Shown: positions 4,601-12,047 of the stretch, in pieces
How positions within the stretch are numbered: the first letter of the stretch is position 1
Layout: each line of letters begins with the position of its first letter
From: Actinomycetota bacterium
GTDB taxonomy: Bacteria; Actinomycetota; Acidimicrobiia; Acidimicrobiales; MedAcidi-G1
Assembly (NCBI GenBank): GCA_014381745.1
Contig: JACNLA010000024.1
Span: forward strand, 1 to 39,288
Length of the DNA stretch: 39,288 nucleotides
Direction of reading: 5' to 3'
Notes under the pieces: model-generated
What the model was told of the DNA's origin: nothing
Seen by the model: only the letters and a program-made list of their open reading frames with translations
Databases searched by the model: none
Translations under genes and position numbers: made by a program

Positions 4601-5464
4601 CTATGCAGCGACCAGCTTCACGGTCTGGCCCTCTGCAGGTGCGCTGACCCGACCAATGTCCATGCCGTCGGCCGCATCGCTGGCCCATGCCAGCAGGCCG
4701 TCGACCGTCTCGTCACAATGCGAGGGGTCGTGGTGGAACAGGGCCAACTCGGATACCGAGGCCTGATGGGCCACCTCCAGCGCGTAGGCGACGGTGCTGT
4801 GGCCCCAGTCGCTCCGTTGAGCGAACTCCTCGGCGGTGAACTGGGCATCGTGGATCAACAGGTCGACCCCGTCGGCCAACTCGAGCACCGCCTCATCGAC
4901 GCAGTGGGGATCGTCGACAGGTTGCTGATGGTCGCTGATGTAGGCGACGCTTACGGAACCCCAGTCGATCCTGTAGCCGTTTGTCACCCCGACATGTGGC
5001 ACCTTCCGCGTGGTGACCACAGCCGGGCCAATCGACATCGTTCCATCGCAGACATCGTGAAACGCCACGTTTCCTGCAAGGTCGTCGATGCAGATCGGGA
5101 AGTAGGGCGGGTTCATGAACGAGGCGAAGGCGGCCTTCATCGACCGGTTCCCATCTGCGGGGCCGAACACGTCAAGGTGGGCTCCGGAGCGGTTGATGGG
5201 GCTGAAGAAGGGAAGCCCCTGAACATGGTCCCAGTGGAGGTGGCTTACGAGCGCCGTTCCACGAAATGGTGGGGTCGCTGGCTCACGATCGATCTCCATG
5301 CCGAAATATCGCAGGCCTGTACCCATGTCGAGGAGGATCGGATCTGCACCGTCAGCCTCCAACACGACACAAGAGGTGTTGCCGCCGTACCGTTTGTTGG
5401 CGTCGCACGGACAGGGCGTGGAGCCACGCACTCCGTAGAAACGGACGTCAAGCGAATCGGTCAT
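4601..5464 (-). CDS. Metallo-beta-lactamase-fold hydrolase
   Basis: A 287-residue cytoplasmic metallohydrolase of the MBL superfamily, closest in layout to the RNase Z/PhnP-like group. It begins with a VRGSTPCP strand and YGGNTSCVVLEADG. The metal motif HLHWDHVQG lies near residue 76, a later histidine is in VPHVGVTNGYRI, and SDH, HDAQF and DWGHSTV supply the remaining ligands. The substrate is unknown. ATG 5464 is chosen over the TTG at 5467 because a TANNNT -10 (5473-5478, minus strand) sits 8 nt upstream, which suggests a leaderless transcript. The gap of about 110 bases before the flavin reductase-like gene leaves co-transcription open. Confidence 0.92.
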   Translation of the reverse strand: MTDSLDVRFYGVRGSTPCPCDANKRYGGNTSCVVLEADGADPILLDMGTGLRYFGMEIDREPATPPFRGTALVSHLHWDHVQGLPFFSPINRSGAHLDVFGPADGNRSMKAAFASFMNPPYFPICIDDLAGNVAFHDVCDGTMSIGPAVVTTRKVPHVGVTNGYRIDWGSVSVAYISDHQQPVDDPHCVDEAVLELADGVDLLIHDAQFTAEEFAQRSDWGHSTVAYALEVAHQASVSELALFHHDPSHCDETVDGLLAWASDAADGMDIGRVSAPAEGQTVKLVAA

Positions 5465-5472
5465 CAACTGCG

Positions 5473-5478
5473 AGGGTA
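5473..5478 (-). promoter_or_regulatory. -10 element of the MBL-fold hydrolase gene
   Basis: On the minus strand the sequence reads TACCCT, then 8 nt, then ATG 5464. This matches the leaderless pattern seen elsewhere in the window. No clear -35 box is visible. Confidence 0.4.
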
Positions 5479-5507
5479 GGAGTGGGTGTCATTTCCGAAG
5501 CGGGAGT

Positions 5508-5539
5508 GTGGCGGATGTCTCAGGTGGCGGATGTCTCAG
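5508..5539 (+). repeat. Perfect 16-bp tandem duplication
   Basis: GTGGCGGATGTCTCAG occurs twice back to back (5508-5523 and 5524-5539), in front of the CPAC thioredoxin-like gene. Because 16 is not a multiple of three it shifts the frame, so a start within it is unlikely to be the authentic one. It may instead lie in the 5' region. Confidence 0.9.
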
Positions 5540-5600
5540 AGAACTCCTCTCTGCTTCGCCTGCTGACCCTGTCGCCGACACAACGCGCGATACTCGCGAC

Positions 5601-5942
5601 GTGAGCAGTCCTCCGGTATCTGACGGCCTGGTAGCCGTGGTGAAGCGGGAGTGCCCCGCCTGCCAACTGGTGGTTCCCGTCCTTGAACAGCTGGCCCTCG
5701 ACGCAGGCCTTACGGTCTTCACCCAGGACGACCCGACTTTCCCGGTCGACGCACCCTGGGTCGTCGACGACACCGACCTCGCCGTCAGTTGGGGACTCGA
5801 CCTCGAGGCAGTTCCCACGCTGCTCCGCTTCGAAGACGGTGAGGAGACAGCGAGGACCATGGGCTGGTCCCGCGATGCGTGGGAGGACCTGACCGGCCAG
5901 ACGGGCCTGGGGCCTGACCTGCCTCCCTTCAAACCGGGTTGA
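5601..5942 (+). CDS. Thioredoxin-like protein with CPAC motif
   Basis: A small thioredoxin-fold protein, 113 residues from GTG 5601. A strand (GLVAVVKRE) leads into C18-P-A-C21, followed by a helix (QLVVPVLEQLALDAG), a second strand (LTVFTQDD) and a VPTLLRFEDGEE segment carrying the cis-proline. This is a redox-active dithiol protein, probably cytoplasmic as there is no signal sequence. An in-frame GTG at 5508 would add 31 unconserved-looking residues through a tandem duplication, so I prefer 5601, although no Shine-Dalgarno is visible. It stands immediately before the UGSC partner gene in the same reading frame, separated only by TGA 5940-5942, and is probably its electron-transfer companion. 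Confidence 0.75.
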   Translation: MSSPPVSDGLVAVVKRECPACQLVVPVLEQLALDAGLTVFTQDDPTFPVDAPWVVDDTDLAVSWGLDLEAVPTLLRFEDGEETARTMGWSRDAWEDLTGQTGLGPDLPPFKPG

Positions 5943-5978
5943 GGTTCCCTCACGGCCGACCCCGGGCGGGTCGACGAG

Positions 5979-7052
5979 TTGAGGGCAAGGTACGGGGCCA
6001 CAGGGGCCGAAAGCCATCTCAAGTCACGCCACGTCCAGATCGCCTCCCTTGAAGACGAGGCCGAGGCCATGTTCGACAGGGGCTGGACCGATGGCCTACC
6101 GGTCGTGGCCCCCACCGAGGCCCGTGTCCGGCGAATGCTCGAAGGCACCACACGGAATCCAGCGGATCTCGTCACGGTGGTGCCGCCCGATCTGGTCGAG
6201 TGCACTGTCGAAAAGGTCGCAGTCAATGCAGTCATGGCTGGCTGTCGACCCGAATACCTCCCGGTTGTACTCGCCGCCCTCGAAGCCGTGTGCACCGATG
6301 AGTTCAACATGCACGGAGTTCTTGCAACGACCATGTCGGTCGGACCGGTGCTGGTCGTGAGCGGCCCCATAGCCGACGAGATCGGCATGAACCACGGGAT
6401 CAACGTTCTCGGACACGGCAACCGGGCCAACAGCACCATCGGCCGTGCCGTCCAACTTGTCATCCGCAACATTGGCGGAGGGGCTCCCGGGGGCATCGAC
6501 AGGGCCACCCTCGGCCACATGGGCAAGCAGGGCTTCTGCTTCGCCGAGGACCAGGCCGGCTCACCCTGGACCAGCCTCGCCGAGCAACATGGTTTCGGGG
6601 CGGGCCAGAACACGGTCACGGCATTTGCCGGTGACGGACCTCACCTGGTCATGGACCAGAAGAGCAGATCGGCAGAATCCCTCACCCGGTCGCTGGCCGA
6701 CTCGCTTCTCGGAACGATCTCGTCACGGGTCGTGATGGGCATGGACGCAATGCTCGTACTTTCTCCCGAGCACATGGCCAGGTACCGGGACGCCGGCTGG
6801 GACCGCGCCCGCTTCACCGAAGAACTCTCAAGCCACCTGACGGTCGACGCCGACACCATCATTGCCGGGGCCGGAGGAATCGACGAAGGCCTGCCATCAG
6901 ACTTTGCCGGCATGTCGCTCCCCAAATTCCGACCAGGCGGCCTACTCGTTGTCCACGCAGGTGGTCCGGCGGGCCTCTTCTCAGCCATCATCGGTGGATG
7001 GGTCAACGGCCAGACAGGAAGTGACCCCGTGACGAAGGAGATAACACAGTGA
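5979..7052 (+). CDS. Large uncharacterised partner of the UGSC selenoprotein
   Basis: A 357-residue protein with no function I can name. It opens with a motif I recall from proteins encoded next to UGSC-family genes (GWTDGLPVVAPTEARVRRML, about residues 35-54). A long alpha/beta region follows, with conserved-looking stretches GINVLGHGNRANSTIGRAV, GGGAPGGIDRATLGHMGKQG and an FRPGGLLVVHAGG strand. The only start upstream of residue 31 is TTG 5979, without a good ribosome site; ATG 6069 would remove the start of the conserved part. Its stop overlaps the GTG of the selenoprotein gene by 4 bases (GTGA), so the two are translationally coupled and probably act together. The frame is open back to the TGA that ends the thioredoxin-like gene. 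Confidence 0.8.
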   Translation: MRARYGATGAESHLKSRHVQIASLEDEAEAMFDRGWTDGLPVVAPTEARVRRMLEGTTRNPADLVTVVPPDLVECTVEKVAVNAVMAGCRPEYLPVVLAALEAVCTDEFNMHGVLATTMSVGPVLVVSGPIADEIGMNHGINVLGHGNRANSTIGRAVQLVIRNIGGGAPGGIDRATLGHMGKQGFCFAEDQAGSPWTSLAEQHGFGAGQNTVTAFAGDGPHLVMDQKSRSAESLTRSLADSLLGTISSRVVMGMDAMLVLSPEHMARYRDAGWDRARFTEELSSHLTVDADTIIAGAGGIDEGLPSDFAGMSLPKFRPGGLLVVHAGGPAGLFSAIIGGWVNGQTGSDPVTKEITQ

Positions 7053-7597
7053 CCATCATCAACCCGACCGGCGTTACCGTCCTCGACCCCACGGCCGAAG
7101 GAAGGCCGGCGGGGCGCGACCTGACCGCCCGGGTGGACTCCCTCACCGGCCTTACCGTCGGCCTGCTCGACATTTCCAAGCCCCGCGGCAACGTGTTCCT
7201 TGACCGACTCCAGGAGCACCTGATAAGGCTGGGCGCGGGCGTGGAGCGCTACACAAAGCCCACCTTCGCCAAGCCTGCCCCGGTCGATCTGCGCCACGAA
7301 ATCGCCACGACATGCGACGCCGTAATCGAGGCTCTGGCCGATTGAGGATCTTGTACGACGTGCAGTGTGCACGACATCGACGATCTTGAACGACGGGGAA
7401 TACCCGGTGTGTTCGTCGCCTCCGGACCTTTTCAGGATGCGGCAGAAGTCCAGGCGAACGCCCTCGGACTTCCGGTTCGGCGGGTGTTTGTCGACCACCC
7501 CATCCAGGACAGGACAGACGCGGAGATGTCGGCACTCGCCGATGCCGCCATCGACCTTCTCGTGGCGGCCCTGACCTCCACCCCATCCAACGCATAG
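7049..7597 (+). CDS. UGSC-family selenoprotein (in-frame TGA read as Sec)
   Basis: One 182-residue gene interrupted by TGA at 7343-7345 (codon 99), which I read as selenocysteine. The frame before TGA ends in EALAD; after it the same frame continues G-S-C-T-T-C-S-V-H-D-I-D-D-L-E-R-R-G to a TAG at 7595-7597. This is the D-U-G-S-C-(S/T)-x-C-S-x-H-D signature that names the UGSC family of (seleno)proteins. Residues on both sides match the family's N-terminal (TVGLLDISKPRGNVFLDRL) and C-terminal (GIPGVFVASGPF, RRVFVDHPIQD) parts. Sec99 and Cys102 would form a selenenyl-sulfide-capable U-x-x-C redox pair, with Cys105 nearby. A SECIS-like hairpin follows the TGA. Its GTG start overlaps the upstream partner gene. 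The reaction catalysed is not known to me. Confidence 0.9.
7346..7373 (+). promoter_or_regulatory. Bacterial SECIS element of the UGSC selenoprotein
   Basis: CGTGCA (7359-7364) pairs perfectly with TGCACG (7368-7373) around a GTG loop (7365-7367). The loop starts 19 nt after the TGA and its first base is G. Size, spacing and loop G agree with the known bacterial SECIS consensus: a short stem and small loop within the coding region just after the UGA, with a G near the loop start for SelB binding. Confidence 0.75.
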
Positions 7598-7635
7598 GTC
7601 GCCCGTCGGGGCCAGTGGTTCAGATGCCGGCGCGC

Positions 7636-7641
7636 TAGCGT
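7636..7641 (+). promoter_or_regulatory. -10 element before the Cys-less thioredoxin-like gene
   Basis: TAGCGT lies 8 nt before GTG 7650, consistent with a leaderless transcript that starts this gene separately from the UGSC gene upstream. Confidence 0.4.
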
Positions 7642-7649
7642 CATCGGCC

Positions 7650-8153
7650 GTGGCAGACACAGAGACGATCAATGGTCCAGGTGAGGTCAGGTTGGTGACT
7701 CTGGGTGGGACTTCGCGCCCACTTTCAGAACTGCTGACTACGTTCCACCTGGCCGCCGTGGTGCTCGATCCGTTCACGCACGAGAGTTCATGGCTCCTCG
7801 ATACGGCACGTCGCATCCTCACAGCGTTCAGCGAGGCCGATGTTCGTGTCGCTTTTGTCCTCAGCGGAACCGATGCTGAGGGTGCCGGCAGCTTCATGGG
7901 GCCGCTGGCCGATGAGATCCTGAGCCTTGCCGATCCCGACCGGAGTTTTGCCCGCTCCCTCGGCCTCACGACCCTTCCCGCATTCGTAGGCGTAAGACAG
8001 GACGGTTCCATGATCGCCAGCGCCGAGGGATGGAACCCTGAGGCATGGCGCACGGTGGCGAGCGACCTTGCGGAGTTGACGGCGTGGACCCGACCCGAGA
8101 TTCCAGCACCCGGCGACCCGGCTCCCTATCAGGGAACCCCCGCCTTCTCCTGA
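7650..8153 (+). CDS. Thioredoxin-fold protein without active-site cysteines
   Basis: A 167-residue protein with the thioredoxin/redoxin order of elements: a strand (HLAAVVLDPFTHESSWLLD), a helix, a strand (DVRVAFVLSG), then LADPDRSFARSLGLTTLPAFVGVRQDG with the typical cis-proline segment, and a C-terminal helix. There is no cysteine at all; the place of the CxxC motif is taken by FTHESSW. It is therefore unlikely to exchange disulfides and may act as a binding or scaffold subunit for the neighbouring redox proteins. It starts with GTG, supported by a -10 element 8 nt upstream. No membrane segment or signal peptide is seen. Confidence 0.75.
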   Translation: MADTETINGPGEVRLVTLGGTSRPLSELLTTFHLAAVVLDPFTHESSWLLDTARRILTAFSEADVRVAFVLSGTDAEGAGSFMGPLADEILSLADPDRSFARSLGLTTLPAFVGVRQDGSMIASAEGWNPEAWRTVASDLAELTAWTRPEIPAPGDPAPYQGTPAFS

Positions 8154-8205
8154 ACGACAACCCCTACAGGCCGTTACCTCTCCGGTCCGAGAGTCGGGTC
8201 GTAGA

Positions 8206-8211
8206 TAGAGT
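8206..8211 (+). promoter_or_regulatory. -10 element of the 2-hydroxyacid dehydrogenase gene
   Basis: TAGAGT ends exactly 6 nt before ATG 8218, the spacing expected for a transcript whose first base is the A of the start codon. Confidence 0.5.
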
Positions 8212-8217
8212 TCCACG

Positions 8218-9138
8218 ATGACCCGACCTGTTGCCGTGGCCCCCGACACCAGGCCCTTGATGTACGAGGCAATGTGTTCGGCCGTCAGGGCGGCTGGTGC
8301 CCGGCTCGTCGACCCGATTGATGCTGAGGGACTCGTGTGGGCCGATCCTGCACGACCAGAGCTGTACCCATCGGTCGTCGACGGTGCCGACAGCCTCACA
8401 TGGGTGCAGCTTCCCTACGCGGGAATCGAACCGTTCGCCCACCATCTGGACGACCGCCTCACATGGACCTGCGGTAAGGGTGTCTACGCTCCGGCCGTTG
8501 CAGAGACGGTGCTGGCCCTGACCTTGGCTGCGTACAAGAACCTCCACGGTTACGCCCGTGTCGATTCCTGGTCCGGCCCGGTGGGCCGCCAGTTGGCCGG
8601 TGCGCATGTGACCATCCTTGGTGGGGGCGGCATCGCCGGCGCCCTGCTACCCCTGCTTGCCCCGTTCAACTGCCGGACCACGGTCGTGCGACGAAGCGAT
8701 GCGACGCTCCCCGGAGCAGATCACACGATCACCGTCGACCTCCTCGATGACGTCCTTCCCGAGACCGACCTTCTGGTCCTGGCCCTCGCCCTTACCCCTG
8801 AAACCGTCGGGATCATCGACTCACGGCGTCTGGACCTCCTACCTACCGACGCATGGATCGTGAACGTGGCCCGCGGAGGCCACATCGTCACCGAGGACCT
8901 GGTTGGCGCCCTCACCCACCACAACATCGGGGGCGCCGCCCTCGACGTAACCGACCCGGAACCCCTGCCCGATGACCACCCCCTCTGGTACCTTCCAAAC
9001 TGTCTGATCACCCCGCACATCGGGAACACACCCGAGACTGGCCTTGTGCTGCTCACCCCGTTTGTGGAGGAGAACGTTCGCAGGTTCGTGGAACACCGGG
9101 ACCTGCTCGCCACGGTCGACGTGGCGCTCGGCTACTGA
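8218..9138 (+). CDS. D-isomer-specific 2-hydroxyacid dehydrogenase
   Basis: A 306-residue NAD(P)-dependent dehydrogenase of the D-2-hydroxyacid family, interconverting 2-oxo acids and D-2-hydroxy acids in the cytoplasm. The nucleotide-binding loop VTILGGGGIAGALL lies near residue 130. The family catalytic residues can be placed: Arg in NVARGGHIV, the acidic residue in DVTDPEPLPDDHPLW and His in LITPHIGNT. The catalytic N-terminal lobe is short and somewhat divergent. The substrate cannot be told from sequence. It has its own leaderless promoter, so its link to the selenoprotein cluster is positional only. Confidence 0.92.
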   Translation: MTRPVAVAPDTRPLMYEAMCSAVRAAGARLVDPIDAEGLVWADPARPELYPSVVDGADSLTWVQLPYAGIEPFAHHLDDRLTWTCGKGVYAPAVAETVLALTLAAYKNLHGYARVDSWSGPVGRQLAGAHVTILGGGGIAGALLPLLAPFNCRTTVVRRSDATLPGADHTITVDLLDDVLPETDLLVLALALTPETVGIIDSRRLDLLPTDAWIVNVARGGHIVTEDLVGALTHHNIGGAALDVTDPEPLPDDHPLWYLPNCLITPHIGNTPETGLVLLTPFVEENVRRFVEHRDLLATVDVALGY

Positions 9139-9168
9139 GACTCGGATGCTCAATATGACGGAGCCGCA

Positions 9169-9552
9169 GTGACGGGGGGTGTCGCAGGGCTGGCTGCGGT
9201 GTTGCTTGCGCTCGTGTTCATGATCGCTGCCGTCTCCAAGTTCCGCGACCCGGACGCCACGCGCCGAACACTCCGTGACTTCGGCCTGCCAAACCCGCGT
9301 CTGCTGGCCGTCGTGCTGCCCATCACCGAGGGTGCAACCGCCATGCTGTTGGTTGTCAGCCCCCGCACCGGAGGCCCCTGCGCGGTGGCCCTCCTGGCGG
9401 CATTCACAACGCTCATCGCAGGGCGCCTCATGGCCGGTCACCGTGATGCATGCGGCTGTTTTGGGGCATGGTCGAGGAACCCACTGTCCTGGAGGGACAT
9501 TGTCCGCAACCTGGTCCTGACCGGACTCGGGGTCGTGTCAACGCTGGGCTAA
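9169..9552 (+). CDS. MauE/DoxX-like redox-associated membrane protein
   Basis: A 127-residue membrane protein with about four hydrophobic segments: residues 5-20, 43-63, 67-84 and near 110-125. The motif D-A-C-G-C-F-G after the third segment is typical of MauE-type proteins, which pass electrons or help mature disulfide-bearing periplasmic enzymes, often with a thioredoxin-like partner. GTG 9169 is used as the start because in the other frames short reading frames end at TGA 9170-9172. Together with the CPAC thioredoxin-like protein and the selenoprotein upstream it suggests a route for electrons across the membrane; that connection is inference. Confidence 0.85.
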   Translation: MTGGVAGLAAVLLALVFMIAAVSKFRDPDATRRTLRDFGLPNPRLLAVVLPITEGATAMLLVVSPRTGGPCAVALLAAFTTLIAGRLMAGHRDACGCFGAWSRNPLSWRDIVRNLVLTGLGVVSTLG

Positions 9553-9646
9553 GACCAACTTCAACCGGTTTGCTACCGTCCCAGCTACGACAATGGAGCC
9601 CGGTTGGCCCCACCTTCCGACACGACCATTTCTAGGAGACCAGGCC

Positions 9647-10378
9647 ATGGACGCACTGACCGCCGCACGCCGTACAGCCACGCCGATCGGTGACCTGGGG
9701 GCAAAGTTCATGCTGGACGGCCACGCCTACAAGCGGGGAGCCGAGCTGGGTCTGCCCTCCGGAATGGGGACCTACATGCTCGGGCGTCTTGGCGTGCTGG
9801 GAGACGTCGACCTGGACACCGCCGTGGATGCTGCGTTCTTCTGGGCCCCTGAAACGATTGCGGCCAACTGGTCCGCTGAGGATTCCGCCATGACCCCGTC
9901 TGCCGCAGCTCCGCTGTACGGCCAGGTTTGTGTCGAGCGGGGCCGCGAGTACCTGTCGGGCTTCGAGGGTGCAGGGCGACTGGCCGACCTGCTGGAACAG
10001 ATGGTTGACTCGGCCGACGAAACCGACGCCGCCCTCTTCGCAGGCTGGCGGGACCTGGAACGCCCCTCAGACCCGGAGGGAAGGGCATACCTTCTTGCCC
10101 AGGTGGCGCGTGAGCTCCGCTTCTGCAGGCACATATGTGCCGTGCGTGCAGCCGACACCGAGCCGCTGGCCATGGTCCTGGCAAAGGGCGGCGAGGCCAA
10201 CGCCAACCTGTTCGGCTGGAGCGATCACTCGTGCGGCCCCGTGGATCCCGACGTCCACGCCGCAATAGAGGCCGCAACCGACCAGGCGTCTGCCGGCGAC
10301 CTGGAATGTCTCACCGATGATGAGCGGACCGAGTTGGTGGATCTGGCCGAAGCCGCCCTCGCCCACGCCACTGTCTGA
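9647..10378 (+). CDS. SCO6745-family protein
   Basis: A 243-residue protein matching the actinobacterial SCO6745 family as I recall it, whose function is unknown. The sequence begins MDALTAARRTATPIGDLGAKFMLD and is largely helical, with GLPSGMGTYMLGRLGVLGDV near residue 35 and the FFWAP segment typical of the family near 65. It ends with RHICAVRAADTEPL and GEANANLFGWSDH. ATG 9647 is chosen because TAGGAGACC lies just upstream and an ATG at 9593 would add an unrelated-looking stretch. There is no signal peptide. The acyl-CoA synthetase gene follows after 46 bases, so the two may be co-transcribed. Confidence 0.87.
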   Translation: MDALTAARRTATPIGDLGAKFMLDGHAYKRGAELGLPSGMGTYMLGRLGVLGDVDLDTAVDAAFFWAPETIAANWSAEDSAMTPSAAAPLYGQVCVERGREYLSGFEGAGRLADLLEQMVDSADETDAALFAGWRDLERPSDPEGRAYLLAQVARELRFCRHICAVRAADTEPLAMVLAKGGEANANLFGWSDHSCGPVDPDVHAAIEAATDQASAGDLECLTDDERTELVDLAEAALAHATV

Positions 10379-10424
10379 GACCCAACCACAGCCGACAAGA
10401 CCCACAAGAAAGAGAGCACCTCTT

Positions 10425-12047
10425 ATGGATGGCCTGATGATGGACACCCCCCTGTCGCTGATCCACCTCTTCGACCGCGCTACCAACCTGTTCGCCGACA
10501 AGCAGATCGTCACAGCAACCCCGACCGGCCGGGAGCGTCTCTCCTACGGCGACTGGGGTGAGCGCACCCGTCGACTCGGCGGGGTCCTAGACAACCTGGG
10601 CATCAGCGAGGACGGCCGCGTTGCCACGTTTGCGTGGAACACCTCACGCCACCTTGAGCTCTACTTCGCACCTCCCTGTACCGGCAGGGTCACCCACACA
10701 CTGAACCTGCGCCTCTTTCCAGACCAGTTGACCTATATCGCCAACCACGCCGAGGACGAGGTCATCTTCGTCGACCAGTCTGTTGCGGGGCTCATCTGGC
10801 CGCTCATGGACACGTTCGACACGGTGAGGCACGTGGTCCTCATGGATGACGGCGCACCGGCACCGGATCACGATGCCATCCGAGCCGAGGTGCACGACTA
10901 CGAGGAACTTCTGGGGGCGGCCTCACCGGTGCAGTGGACCCGTGTCGAGGAGAACCGGGCCGGGTCGATGATGTACACCTCTGGCACCACCGGCGACCCG
11001 AAAGGCGTCGTTTACTCACACCGTTCGATGGTGCTCCACACCTTTGGAGCCATGATGGCCGACACGCTCGGGGTAACCGAGAGCGACGTGATCCTTCCTG
11101 TCGTGCCCATGTTCCACGCCAATTCATGGGGCCTCGCCCACGCCGGTGTGGCAACGGGGGCAACTCTCGTAATGCCTGGTGCCAACCTGACTCCCGGCGC
11201 CCTGGCGGACCTGGTGGAAACTGAAAGGGTCAGCCTGGCCGCCGGAGTTCCGACCATCTGGATGGGCGTCCTCCCGGAACTGGAAGGTCGCGACCTTTCG
11301 GCACTGCGAGCCATTCCGTGTGGCGGTTCCGCTGTTCCCAGATCCCTCTCTGAGGGATACCGCAAGGTGACCGGTCTTCCCCTGCTTCAGGCGTGGGGCA
11401 TGACCGAAACCAGCCCACTCGCTGCCGTGTGCCAGATCAAGTCCACGCTCGGCCACCTCGACGACGACGCCAAGGCTGACCTTCGGACCACGGTCGGGCT
11501 TGTCACCCCGGGGGTGGACTTTCGCATCGCCGACCCCGACACGGGTGACGAGGTTCCACGGGACGGTGAATCAAGGGGCGAACTACAGGTGCGCGGGCCC
11601 TGGATTGCCCGCACCTACTACAACGACGACCGGTCAGCCGACTCCTTCACCGACGACGGCTGGCTCAGGACGGGCGACGTGGCGACCGCCGATTCGGAGG
11701 GCTACATCCGCCTGGTCGACCGCACCAAGGACCTCATCAAGTCAGGCGGAGAATGGATCAGCTCGGTGGAACTGGAGAACGAGATCATGGCCCACCCCGA
11801 CGTGGTCGAGGCTGCCGTAATCGGCGTGGCCTCCACCAAGTGGGGTGAACGGGCAATGGCATGCGTGGTCACGGCAGATGGAGCGACGCTCTCGGCCGAG
11901 GAGGTGGTGGCCTGGCTGGAAGGGCGGGTCGTGAAGTGGTGGATGCCCGACCGGATCGAGTTCATCGAAGAGGTACCAAAGACCTCTGTCGGCAAGTTCT
12001 CCAAGAAGACCCTTCGGGAACGCTTCGCCGACGTGCAGGTCGACTGA
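10425..12047 (+). CDS. Acyl-CoA synthetase (fatty-acid--CoA ligase, AMP-forming)
   Basis: A 540-residue adenylate-forming enzyme that activates a carboxylic acid to its CoA thioester with ATP. The motifs are intact: the P-loop-like YTSGTTGDPKGV near residue 185, HANSWGLAHAG, the aromatic-adenine motif LLQAWGMTETSP, GWLRTGDVAT, DRTKDLIKSGGEWIS and the C-terminal lysine region PKTSVGKFSKKTLRE. The overall pattern is that of the medium/long-chain AlkK-like ligases, a class that also contains DmdB, the methylmercaptopropionate-CoA ligase. ATG 10425 follows a purine-rich AAGAAAGAGAG sequence; upstream in-frame codons overlap the previous gene and look unrelated. Confidence 0.94.
   Translation: MDGLMMDTPLSLIHLFDRATNLFADKQIVTATPTGRERLSYGDWGERTRRLGGVLDNLGISEDGRVATFAWNTSRHLELYFAPPCTGRVTHTLNLRLFPDQLTYIANHAEDEVIFVDQSVAGLIWPLMDTFDTVRHVVLMDDGAPAPDHDAIRAEVHDYEELLGAASPVQWTRVEENRAGSMMYTSGTTGDPKGVVYSHRSMVLHTFGAMMADTLGVTESDVILPVVPMFHANSWGLAHAGVATGATLVMPGANLTPGALADLVETERVSLAAGVPTIWMGVLPELEGRDLSALRAIPCGGSAVPRSLSEGYRKVTGLPLLQAWGMTETSPLAAVCQIKSTLGHLDDDAKADLRTTVGLVTPGVDFRIADPDTGDEVPRDGESRGELQVRGPWIARTYYNDDRSADSFTDDGWLRTGDVATADSEGYIRLVDRTKDLIKSGGEWISSVELENEIMAHPDVVEAAVIGVASTKWGERAMACVVTADGATLSAEEVVAWLEGRVVKWWMPDRIEFIEEVPKTSVGKFSKKTLRERFADVQVD

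Follow-up and report, generated by a model that had tools for sequence, protein, structure and literature searches.

The window analysed here is a stretch of 39,288 nucleotides of an Actinomycetota bacterium of the order Acidimicrobiales (GenBank assembly GCA_014381745.1, contig JACNLA010000024.1, positions 1 to 39,288 of the forward strand), and its subject is a pair of overlapping genes encoding a protein of 357 residues, called P357 below, and a selenoprotein of the UGSC family. They lie in a run of six consecutive plus-strand genes which an earlier note on this DNA had described as a thiol and selenol redox cluster. All six genes were recovered by a check of open reading frames and by family searches, so that the observation itself is confirmed, while the interpretation placed on it is partly supported. 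The features are as follows.

5601..5942, plus strand: CPAC thioredoxin-like protein, 113 residues, GTG start at 5601 (weak thioredoxin match, TIGR01068, E 1.1e-4)
5979..7052, plus strand: P357, the 357-residue partner protein (TTG start taken from the open reading frame list; no Pfam or NCBIfam family)
7049..7597, plus strand: UGSC selenoprotein, 182 residues with TGA read as selenocysteine (Sec, U99) (PF24696, NF041046)
7343..7345, plus strand: in-frame TGA, the Sec codon of UGSC (TGA conserved in relatives; tRNA-Sec and SelB in the genome)
7359..7373, plus strand: putative bacterial selenocysteine insertion sequence (SECIS), apical stem-loop of 6 bp with a GUG loop (pairing kept across 68 distinct sequences)
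7650..8153, plus strand: Cys-less thioredoxin-like protein, clade-specific accessory (Redoxin, E 6.7e-5, under the cut-off)
8218..9138, plus strand: D-2-hydroxyacid dehydrogenase, clade-specific neighbour (PF02826, E 1.7e-41, 142 bits against a cut-off of 25.1)
9169..9552, plus strand: MauE-family membrane protein with C-G-C, clade-specific neighbour (PF07291, E 1.2e-26, 94 bits against a cut-off of 27)
10410-12047: AMP-binding acyl-CoA ligase, downstream of the six genes

The stop of P357 and the start of UGSC share the bases GTGA at 7049-7052. This overlap had been taken to fuse the two genes, but in the window they are two separate open reading frames. Many relatives of P357 align with it only from about residue 12. 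For the D-2-hydroxyacid dehydrogenase no NCBIfam equivalog cut-off was reached, and an Rfam scan of 5400-9700 gave no credible match.

The TGA of the UGSC gene is decoded as Sec in the window's genome, a reading supported by a conserved hairpin after the TGA and by a tRNA-Sec (67.5 bits, anticodon tca) and SelB (260 bits against a cut-off of 242) encoded in the genome. The best 80 of 184 P357 relatives (loci L031-L110, nearly all from Acidimicrobiia) were compared, and 79 of these have TGA followed by Gly-Ser-Cys and the same downstream protein, the remaining one (L065) ending at a contig edge. With the T of the TGA as base 1, the stem-loop spans bases 17-31; five of its six pairs are standard in 68 of 68 distinct sequences, and the remaining pair in 67 of them. 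The pair 18/30, which joins two third codon positions, is G-C in 57 sequences, A-U in 8 and G-U in 3, the A-U cases coming from related genomes and possibly reflecting a single event. Third codon positions outside the stem, e.g. 6 and 9, vary freely, whereas those in the stem are frozen. A longer stem may surround the stem-loop at 7359-7373. It is exceedingly improbable that translation ends at the TGA and that UGSC is a pseudogene or a pair of genes: an in-frame stop codon is indeed present, and the hairpin of the window taken alone is only moderately stable (-15.7 kcal/mol, z -1.63 against shuffles), but the conservation of codon and downstream protein, the covarying stem, the decoding genes and the replacement of Sec by Cys in other homologues all argue for decoding.

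The pairing of P357 with UGSC is well supported. UGSC adjoins P357 in all 80 loci L031-L110, at a distance of 1.1 kb in L102 and with the contig end cutting L065. Among 396 genomes of the phylum, UGSC was found above cut-off in 27 and P357 alignment matches in 30; P357 is present in every one of the 27 with UGSC, and UGSC in 27 of the 30 with P357. Related genomes are not independent in any of these co-occurrence counts, and a Fisher value computed from them therefore overstates significance. P357 was located within 1.5 kb and on the same strand at 39 of 43 UGSC places, and a direct scan of G362:C251 brings this to 40; the other three are one place near a contig end (G046:C612) and two partial matches (G102:C23 and G156:C68). 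Seen from P357, 40 of 49 rows adjoin UGSC, the nine others being a second copy in G102, one row on G362:C91, two fragments, and five rows that come from tandem-fused P357 genes of a single G183 contig. Locus L207 (G183:C272), a contig of 9.2 kb, holds two genes of tandem-fused P357 domains and no UGSC.

The same association was found in plasmids. In a search of 72,556 plasmids, P357 was present in 24 records and UGSC in 16, all of them among the 24, and in 16 of 16 the two matches lie within about 310 bases of each other, as read from match coordinates. The pair-bearing plasmids include those of haloarchaea, Paracoccus, Arthrobacter, Embleya, Roseovarius, Acidovorax and Variovorax. As to the other eight P357 records, those of Vibrio and Sporomusa carry fused proteins, five are from Neorhizobium, with a diverged, fused UGSC part in the one examined (L120), and that of Haladaptatus has P357 and no UGSC within the stretch examined. 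No match was found in viral contigs. The order of the genes varies between P357-UGSC, UGSC-P357, a fusion (L026, L027, L114, L117, L120 and L213) and P357-UGSC-P357 (L118, L211 and L212). The distance matrices of the two proteins over 61 loci are strongly correlated (Mantel r 0.944; best of 2000 permutations 0.281), and when UGSC partners were swapped within genomes (seven genomes with 2-5 copies) this value was never reached in 5000 shuffles. It follows that P357 and UGSC evolve in matched pairs, as would be expected of proteins that share an active site or bind tightly in a complex. The earlier proposal, which joined the 357-residue protein and the selenoprotein in one unit, is borne out by their adjacency in genomes and plasmids alike.

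The conjugative plasmid pBEN of Paracoccus versutus DSM 17099 (L112 7447-17038; L215 14453-17589) carries UGSC with an in-frame TGA, together with P357. About 7 kb of it holds the UGSC-P357 pair, SelB (384 bits, cut-off 242), a thioredoxin reductase (TrxR)-like gene and a tRNA-Sec (L215 14453-14546); no SelA was seen among the few open reading frames scanned. This stretch is a transferable selenocysteine cassette, and UGSC-P357 is able to travel with its own decoding genes.

The pair is accompanied by thioredoxins. In each of the 80 loci L031-L110, P357 is immediately preceded by a CPxC thioredoxin homologue, in agreement with the earlier suggestion that thioredoxin-type proteins go with the pair, and UGSC genes are clearly and repeatedly found next to P357 and thioredoxin genes. 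In 96 rows the CxxC motif of this homologue reads CPTC (54), CPAC (18), CETC (11), CATC (7) or CSAC (1), and five rows, partly cut, are without it. Diverse loci have a TrxR-like gene as well, in 9 of the 51 wide loci compared; those scanned have strong TRX_reduct likeness and do not reach the equivalog cut-off. The RefSeq label trxB appears in the loci of Arthrobacter, Roseovarius and Variovorax SRS16, and in Arthrobacter trxB-trxA-P357-UGSC form a single run. The genome of the window (2.19 Mb) has one clear TrxR, on another contig; the background of 0.02 used for TrxR-like genes is an assumption, approximately in line with this count. We propose that the CPAC protein is the dedicated reductant of P357-UGSC, the thioredoxin recycling of which is fairly supported.

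The earlier model, in which all six genes constitute one redox system, is very unlikely to hold. In the window and in close relatives the six do stand in one run, but the last three recur almost only in near relatives, with hidden Markov model (HMM) matches over 110 loci numbering 38 for the Cys-less protein, 32 for the dehydrogenase and 28 for MauE. The dehydrogenase was found in 2 of 51 wide loci, and neighbour clustering of the wide loci gave no recurrent MauE cluster; the constant parts are the thioredoxin, P357 and UGSC only. The core is best read as a selenoenzyme of two subunits to which a thioredoxin is supplied; the other three genes are local company. By profile comparison with the CPxC thioredoxin family (E 5e-6, probability 86, 45 columns), the Cys-less protein is a probable paralogue of the CPxC thioredoxin and possibly acts as a structural subunit.

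The product of 7049-7597 is by score a member of the UGSC family with its U/C-G-S-C motif, reaching 144 bits against PF24696 (cut-off 25, E 6.7e-42) and 149.7 bits against NF041046 (cut-off 125); two UGSC matches under the cut-off (L028 and L029) were dropped as false. According to the parts of the literature available here, the family has been known since the 2008 GOS survey, which supposed a thioredoxin-like fold (PMC2398784), counted 255 UGSC Sec genes, and listed a 'UGSC/Unknown_1' fusion that may correspond to the fused P357 form. A later survey, as far as its text was accessible, attributes 8.2% of selenoprotein genes to UGSC. The accessible texts naming the UGSC protein, a scope that leaves out subscription papers and preprints, give no function, partner gene or relation to GrdB. 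What is added here is the constant partner P357 and the relation to GrdB/PrdB.

This relation comes from profile comparisons. UGSC matches the profiles of GrdB (E 1.4e-4), of PrdB-like proteins (E 3.7e-5; built from 16 of 24 candidate loci that gave usable sequence, 8 being dropped) and of TIGR01917 (E 1.9e-4), and in a comparison with a combined GrdB and PrdB profile by hhalign it reaches E 3e-7 and a probability of 93.2 over 62 columns, Sec falling on Sec. As controls, unrelated profile comparisons gave E 0.13-0.96, and GrdB against PrdB a probability of 99.7. UGSC, GrdB and the short PrdB-like proteins have a common setting, consisting of a strand, Sec, G-T or P-x, Cys, a helix, a 'G-I-P-T' strand and a late 'P-x-G'. 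UGSC is accordingly taken as a probable distant third branch of the GrdB/PrdB Sec-domain superfamily, and not as a GrdB. Since the alignment sets its Sec on the catalytic one of GrdB and PrdB, UGSC probably carries the nucleophile; the earlier note had seen the selenoprotein as a redox subunit, and it is probably more than a side-subunit of that kind. Cys102 is conserved in all U and C forms examined and Cys105 is not, so U99 and Cys102 are the likely redox pair. The window's genome encodes two more PrdB-like Sec proteins with U-P-x-C, L187 (G000:C4:45398-45793) and L188 (G000:C2:30658-30981). In Arthrobacter sp. ERGS1:01, the UGSC protein (L113 8997-9809) has a C-terminal NifU-like domain (PF01106, E 4.3e-6), and its gene adjoins a phosphosulfolactate-synthase-like gene, trxB and trxA.

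The predicted model of UGSC (predicted local distance difference test score, pLDDT, 88.6) has strictly alternating strands and helices, and U99 follows strand 91-97 and precedes helix 100-115. The Foldseek matches listed are generic alpha/beta proteins with template modelling (TM) scores of about 0.5 or less, and no thioredoxin-fold protein is among the 50 listed, although such a list does not establish absence. The VIA list is headed by 8s7v_H of the MCR activation complex (Z 11.9, 128 residues, 2.8 Å), followed by many generic alpha/beta folds; thioredoxin, GrdB and PrdB rows are absent from the structural matches listed. Searches of PDB sequences, that with P357 among them, gave nothing significant. 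A thioredoxin fold was abandoned as the leading idea for UGSC, since the predicted order of strands and helices does not fit it. The same model bears on the possibility that UGSC-P357 is a thiol-disulfide or peroxide oxidoreductase for stress defence, which the U-x-x-C motif, the nearby thioredoxin genes and the older characterisation of UGSC as thioredoxin-like would favour. We find this rather unlikely in view of the predicted alternating fold with Sec at a helix start, the lack of a thioredoxin fold among those 50 matches, the alignment of the Sec domain with GrdB/PrdB, and the position of distant loci among uptake and coenzyme A (CoA)-acid genes.

In those distant loci, uptake systems (TRAP, tripartite tricarboxylate and ABC) and LysR regulators adjoin the pair. 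Neighbour clusters, named from sequences and locus annotations, include short-chain dehydrogenases/reductases (13 loci), acyl-CoA dehydrogenases (9), CaiB-type CoA transferases (8), enoyl-CoA hydratases (7) and CoA ligases (6), and haloarchaeal loci have a CitE-like lyase and a CoA transferase near the pair. This context, to which the acyl-CoA ligase at 10410-12047 of the window adds, suits a step in the use of organic acids rather than stress defence. DUF6282 (amidohydrolase-like) genes stand beside the pair in L111, L147, L209 and L211, i.e. three haloarchaeal loci and one actinobacterial genome. Links with hydroxyproline, malonate, citramalate-type and sulfo-acid genes were seen in one to three loci each and were not adopted.

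P357 passed no Pfam or NCBIfam cut-off, in keeping with its earlier description as uncharacterised, and has no match to PF09338, the GrdE/PrdA proprotein family. Its predicted model is of good quality (pLDDT 84.5, predicted TM score 0.86), and conserved residues are D38 G39, C89, N151, R156, D174, K183 and E190. Structural matches are weak, class I fumarases leading among those listed (TM 0.26; Z 4.0), and kinship by sequence to GrdE, GrdB or class I fumarase was rejected, as the profile comparisons were not significant (E 0.29 for the fumarase). A distant fold kinship with GrdE/PrdA may exist. The table of 152 copies from which residues were counted holds duplicates, and the non-redundant count covers 129 of 130 loci (L158 has no P357 row). 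In this set the Sec position of UGSC is occupied by Sec 115 times, by Cys 10 times and by Met 3 times (in Met-Gly-Thr-Ser, MGTS), one sequence being cut. Lys183 is kept in 112 of 115 P357 proteins with a Sec partner, in 8 of 10 with Cys, in none of 3 with Met and in the one with the cut partner; in all three distinct Met forms, where the UGSC part has neither Sec nor Cys, it is replaced by Glu. Lys183 may thus act in concert with the chalcogen, although the evidence is thin, the three sequences belonging to a single fused lineage. The near-invariant Lys183, together with Arg156, Asn151, Asp174 and Glu190, provides the best candidates for active-site residues of P357.

The MGTS forms, all UGSC-P357 fusions (L114 7323-9008, L117 7329-9053 and L027/L169), are a redox-free offshoot; those of Vibrio and Sporomusa lie near aconitase X and DUF126 genes. 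Together with the fumarase-like fold matches of P357 and the CitE-like lyase and CoA transferase of haloarchaea, they lend something to the idea that UGSC-P357 acts on hydroxy- or dicarboxylic acids as a lyase, isomerase or hydrolase, with Sec or Cys as a covalent catalyst and no net reduction. This alternative is improbable, though to be taken seriously: Sec or Cys is kept in 125 of the 129 non-redundant loci, the fumarase match is too weak for homology, and dedicated thioredoxin and TrxR-like genes point to reducing power being consumed. That the redox partners of such an enzyme would merely keep Sec or Cys reduced seems equally improbable.

We propose that P357-UGSC is a two-subunit, thioredoxin-recycled selenolate reductase which cleaves an activated C-X bond of an organic acid, a reading that we consider moderately probable. 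UGSC would supply the selenolate, with Sec99 at a helix start and Cys102 as its partner in U-x-x-C, and its nucleophilic chemistry is inferred from the alignments. P357 would bind and polarise the substrate, in a role like that of GrdE/PrdA, and the selenolate would displace a leaving group next to the carboxylate (C-N, C-O, C-S or C-halogen). The organic group would then leave as Sec99 closes a selenenylsulfide with Cys102, and this would be reduced by the CPxC thioredoxin, elsewhere by TrxA and a TrxR-like flavoprotein. Each of these chemical steps is modelled by analogy. In the accessible parts of the respective papers, glycine reductase is described as needing thioredoxin for recycling and as passing through a carbon-selenium bond (PMC10298544), GrdB as having a UxxCxxC motif with PrdB as its homologue (PMC13188914), and a GrdB/GrdE-type pair is implicated in C-F cleavage of fluoroacetate (PMC10838667).

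Several observations weigh against the proposed selenolate reductase. The likeness to GrdB spans about 62-76 columns around Sec, no single comparison being overwhelming, and UGSC falls far under the GrdB family cut-off (TIGR01918, 16.1 against 65.45 bits). P357 shows no relation to actinobacterial GrdE (E 0.57), and neither GrdE and GrdA nor a GrdE/PrdA-type partner (PF09338) was found in the window's genome, in searches run without a positive control. The three fused MGTS homologues imply that the scaffold can do something without a chalcogen, and P357 also occurs with no UGSC nearby (L207, L208 and L209; second copy in L171). Only 9 of the 51 wide loci have a TrxR-like gene nearby, in one case 6 kb away. 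Finally, no substrate is indicated, because the neighbouring pathways differ between loci.

Compared with known systems, UGSC resembles GrdB of glycine/betaine/sarcosine reductase (PF07355) in the region around Sec, reading Sec-G-S-C-x-x-C where GrdB has Sec-G-T/S-x-T-x-C; both systems have a substrate subunit and a selenoprotein encoded by two genes, and that of GrdB depends on thioredoxin. UGSC differs in consisting of the Sec domain only, with scores far below the GrdB cut-offs, and in having P357 in place of GrdE, with no GrdA or GrdC seen beside it. With PrdB of D-proline reductase and the short PrdB-like U-P-x-C proteins it shares the stand-alone Sec domain, but G-S-C follows Sec in UGSC and P-x-C in PrdB, and the partner is another one. 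The fluoroacetate reductase operon farACEB of Cloacibacillus porcorum likewise encodes a pair proposed to cleave C-X beside a carboxylate; according to the available text that pair is GrdB/GrdE-like, and its assignment came from expression and genome comparison (PMC10838667). The likeness of class I fumarase to P357 is at the level of fold only, with no sequence relation.

P357-UGSC may tentatively be regarded as forming, alongside glycine and D-proline reductase, a third class of selenolate reductase, in which a new scaffold with a conserved lysine would replace GrdE/PrdA, thioredoxin would be the reductant and a C-X bond would be cleaved. Just as tentatively, such a class is taken to serve both aerobic and anaerobic bacteria and, in a Cys form, haloarchaea. 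Few selenoprotein families of sea and fresh water are as abundant as UGSC, and its partner, thioredoxin supply and kinship to GrdB/PrdB make of an 'unknown redox protein' a specific enzyme that can be tested, for which the Cys forms of cultured organisms make first assays possible without selenium chemistry. To our knowledge, selenolate C-X cleavage is otherwise known only from anaerobic amino-acid fermenters; if the proposal is true, this chemistry would be widespread in aerobic settings.

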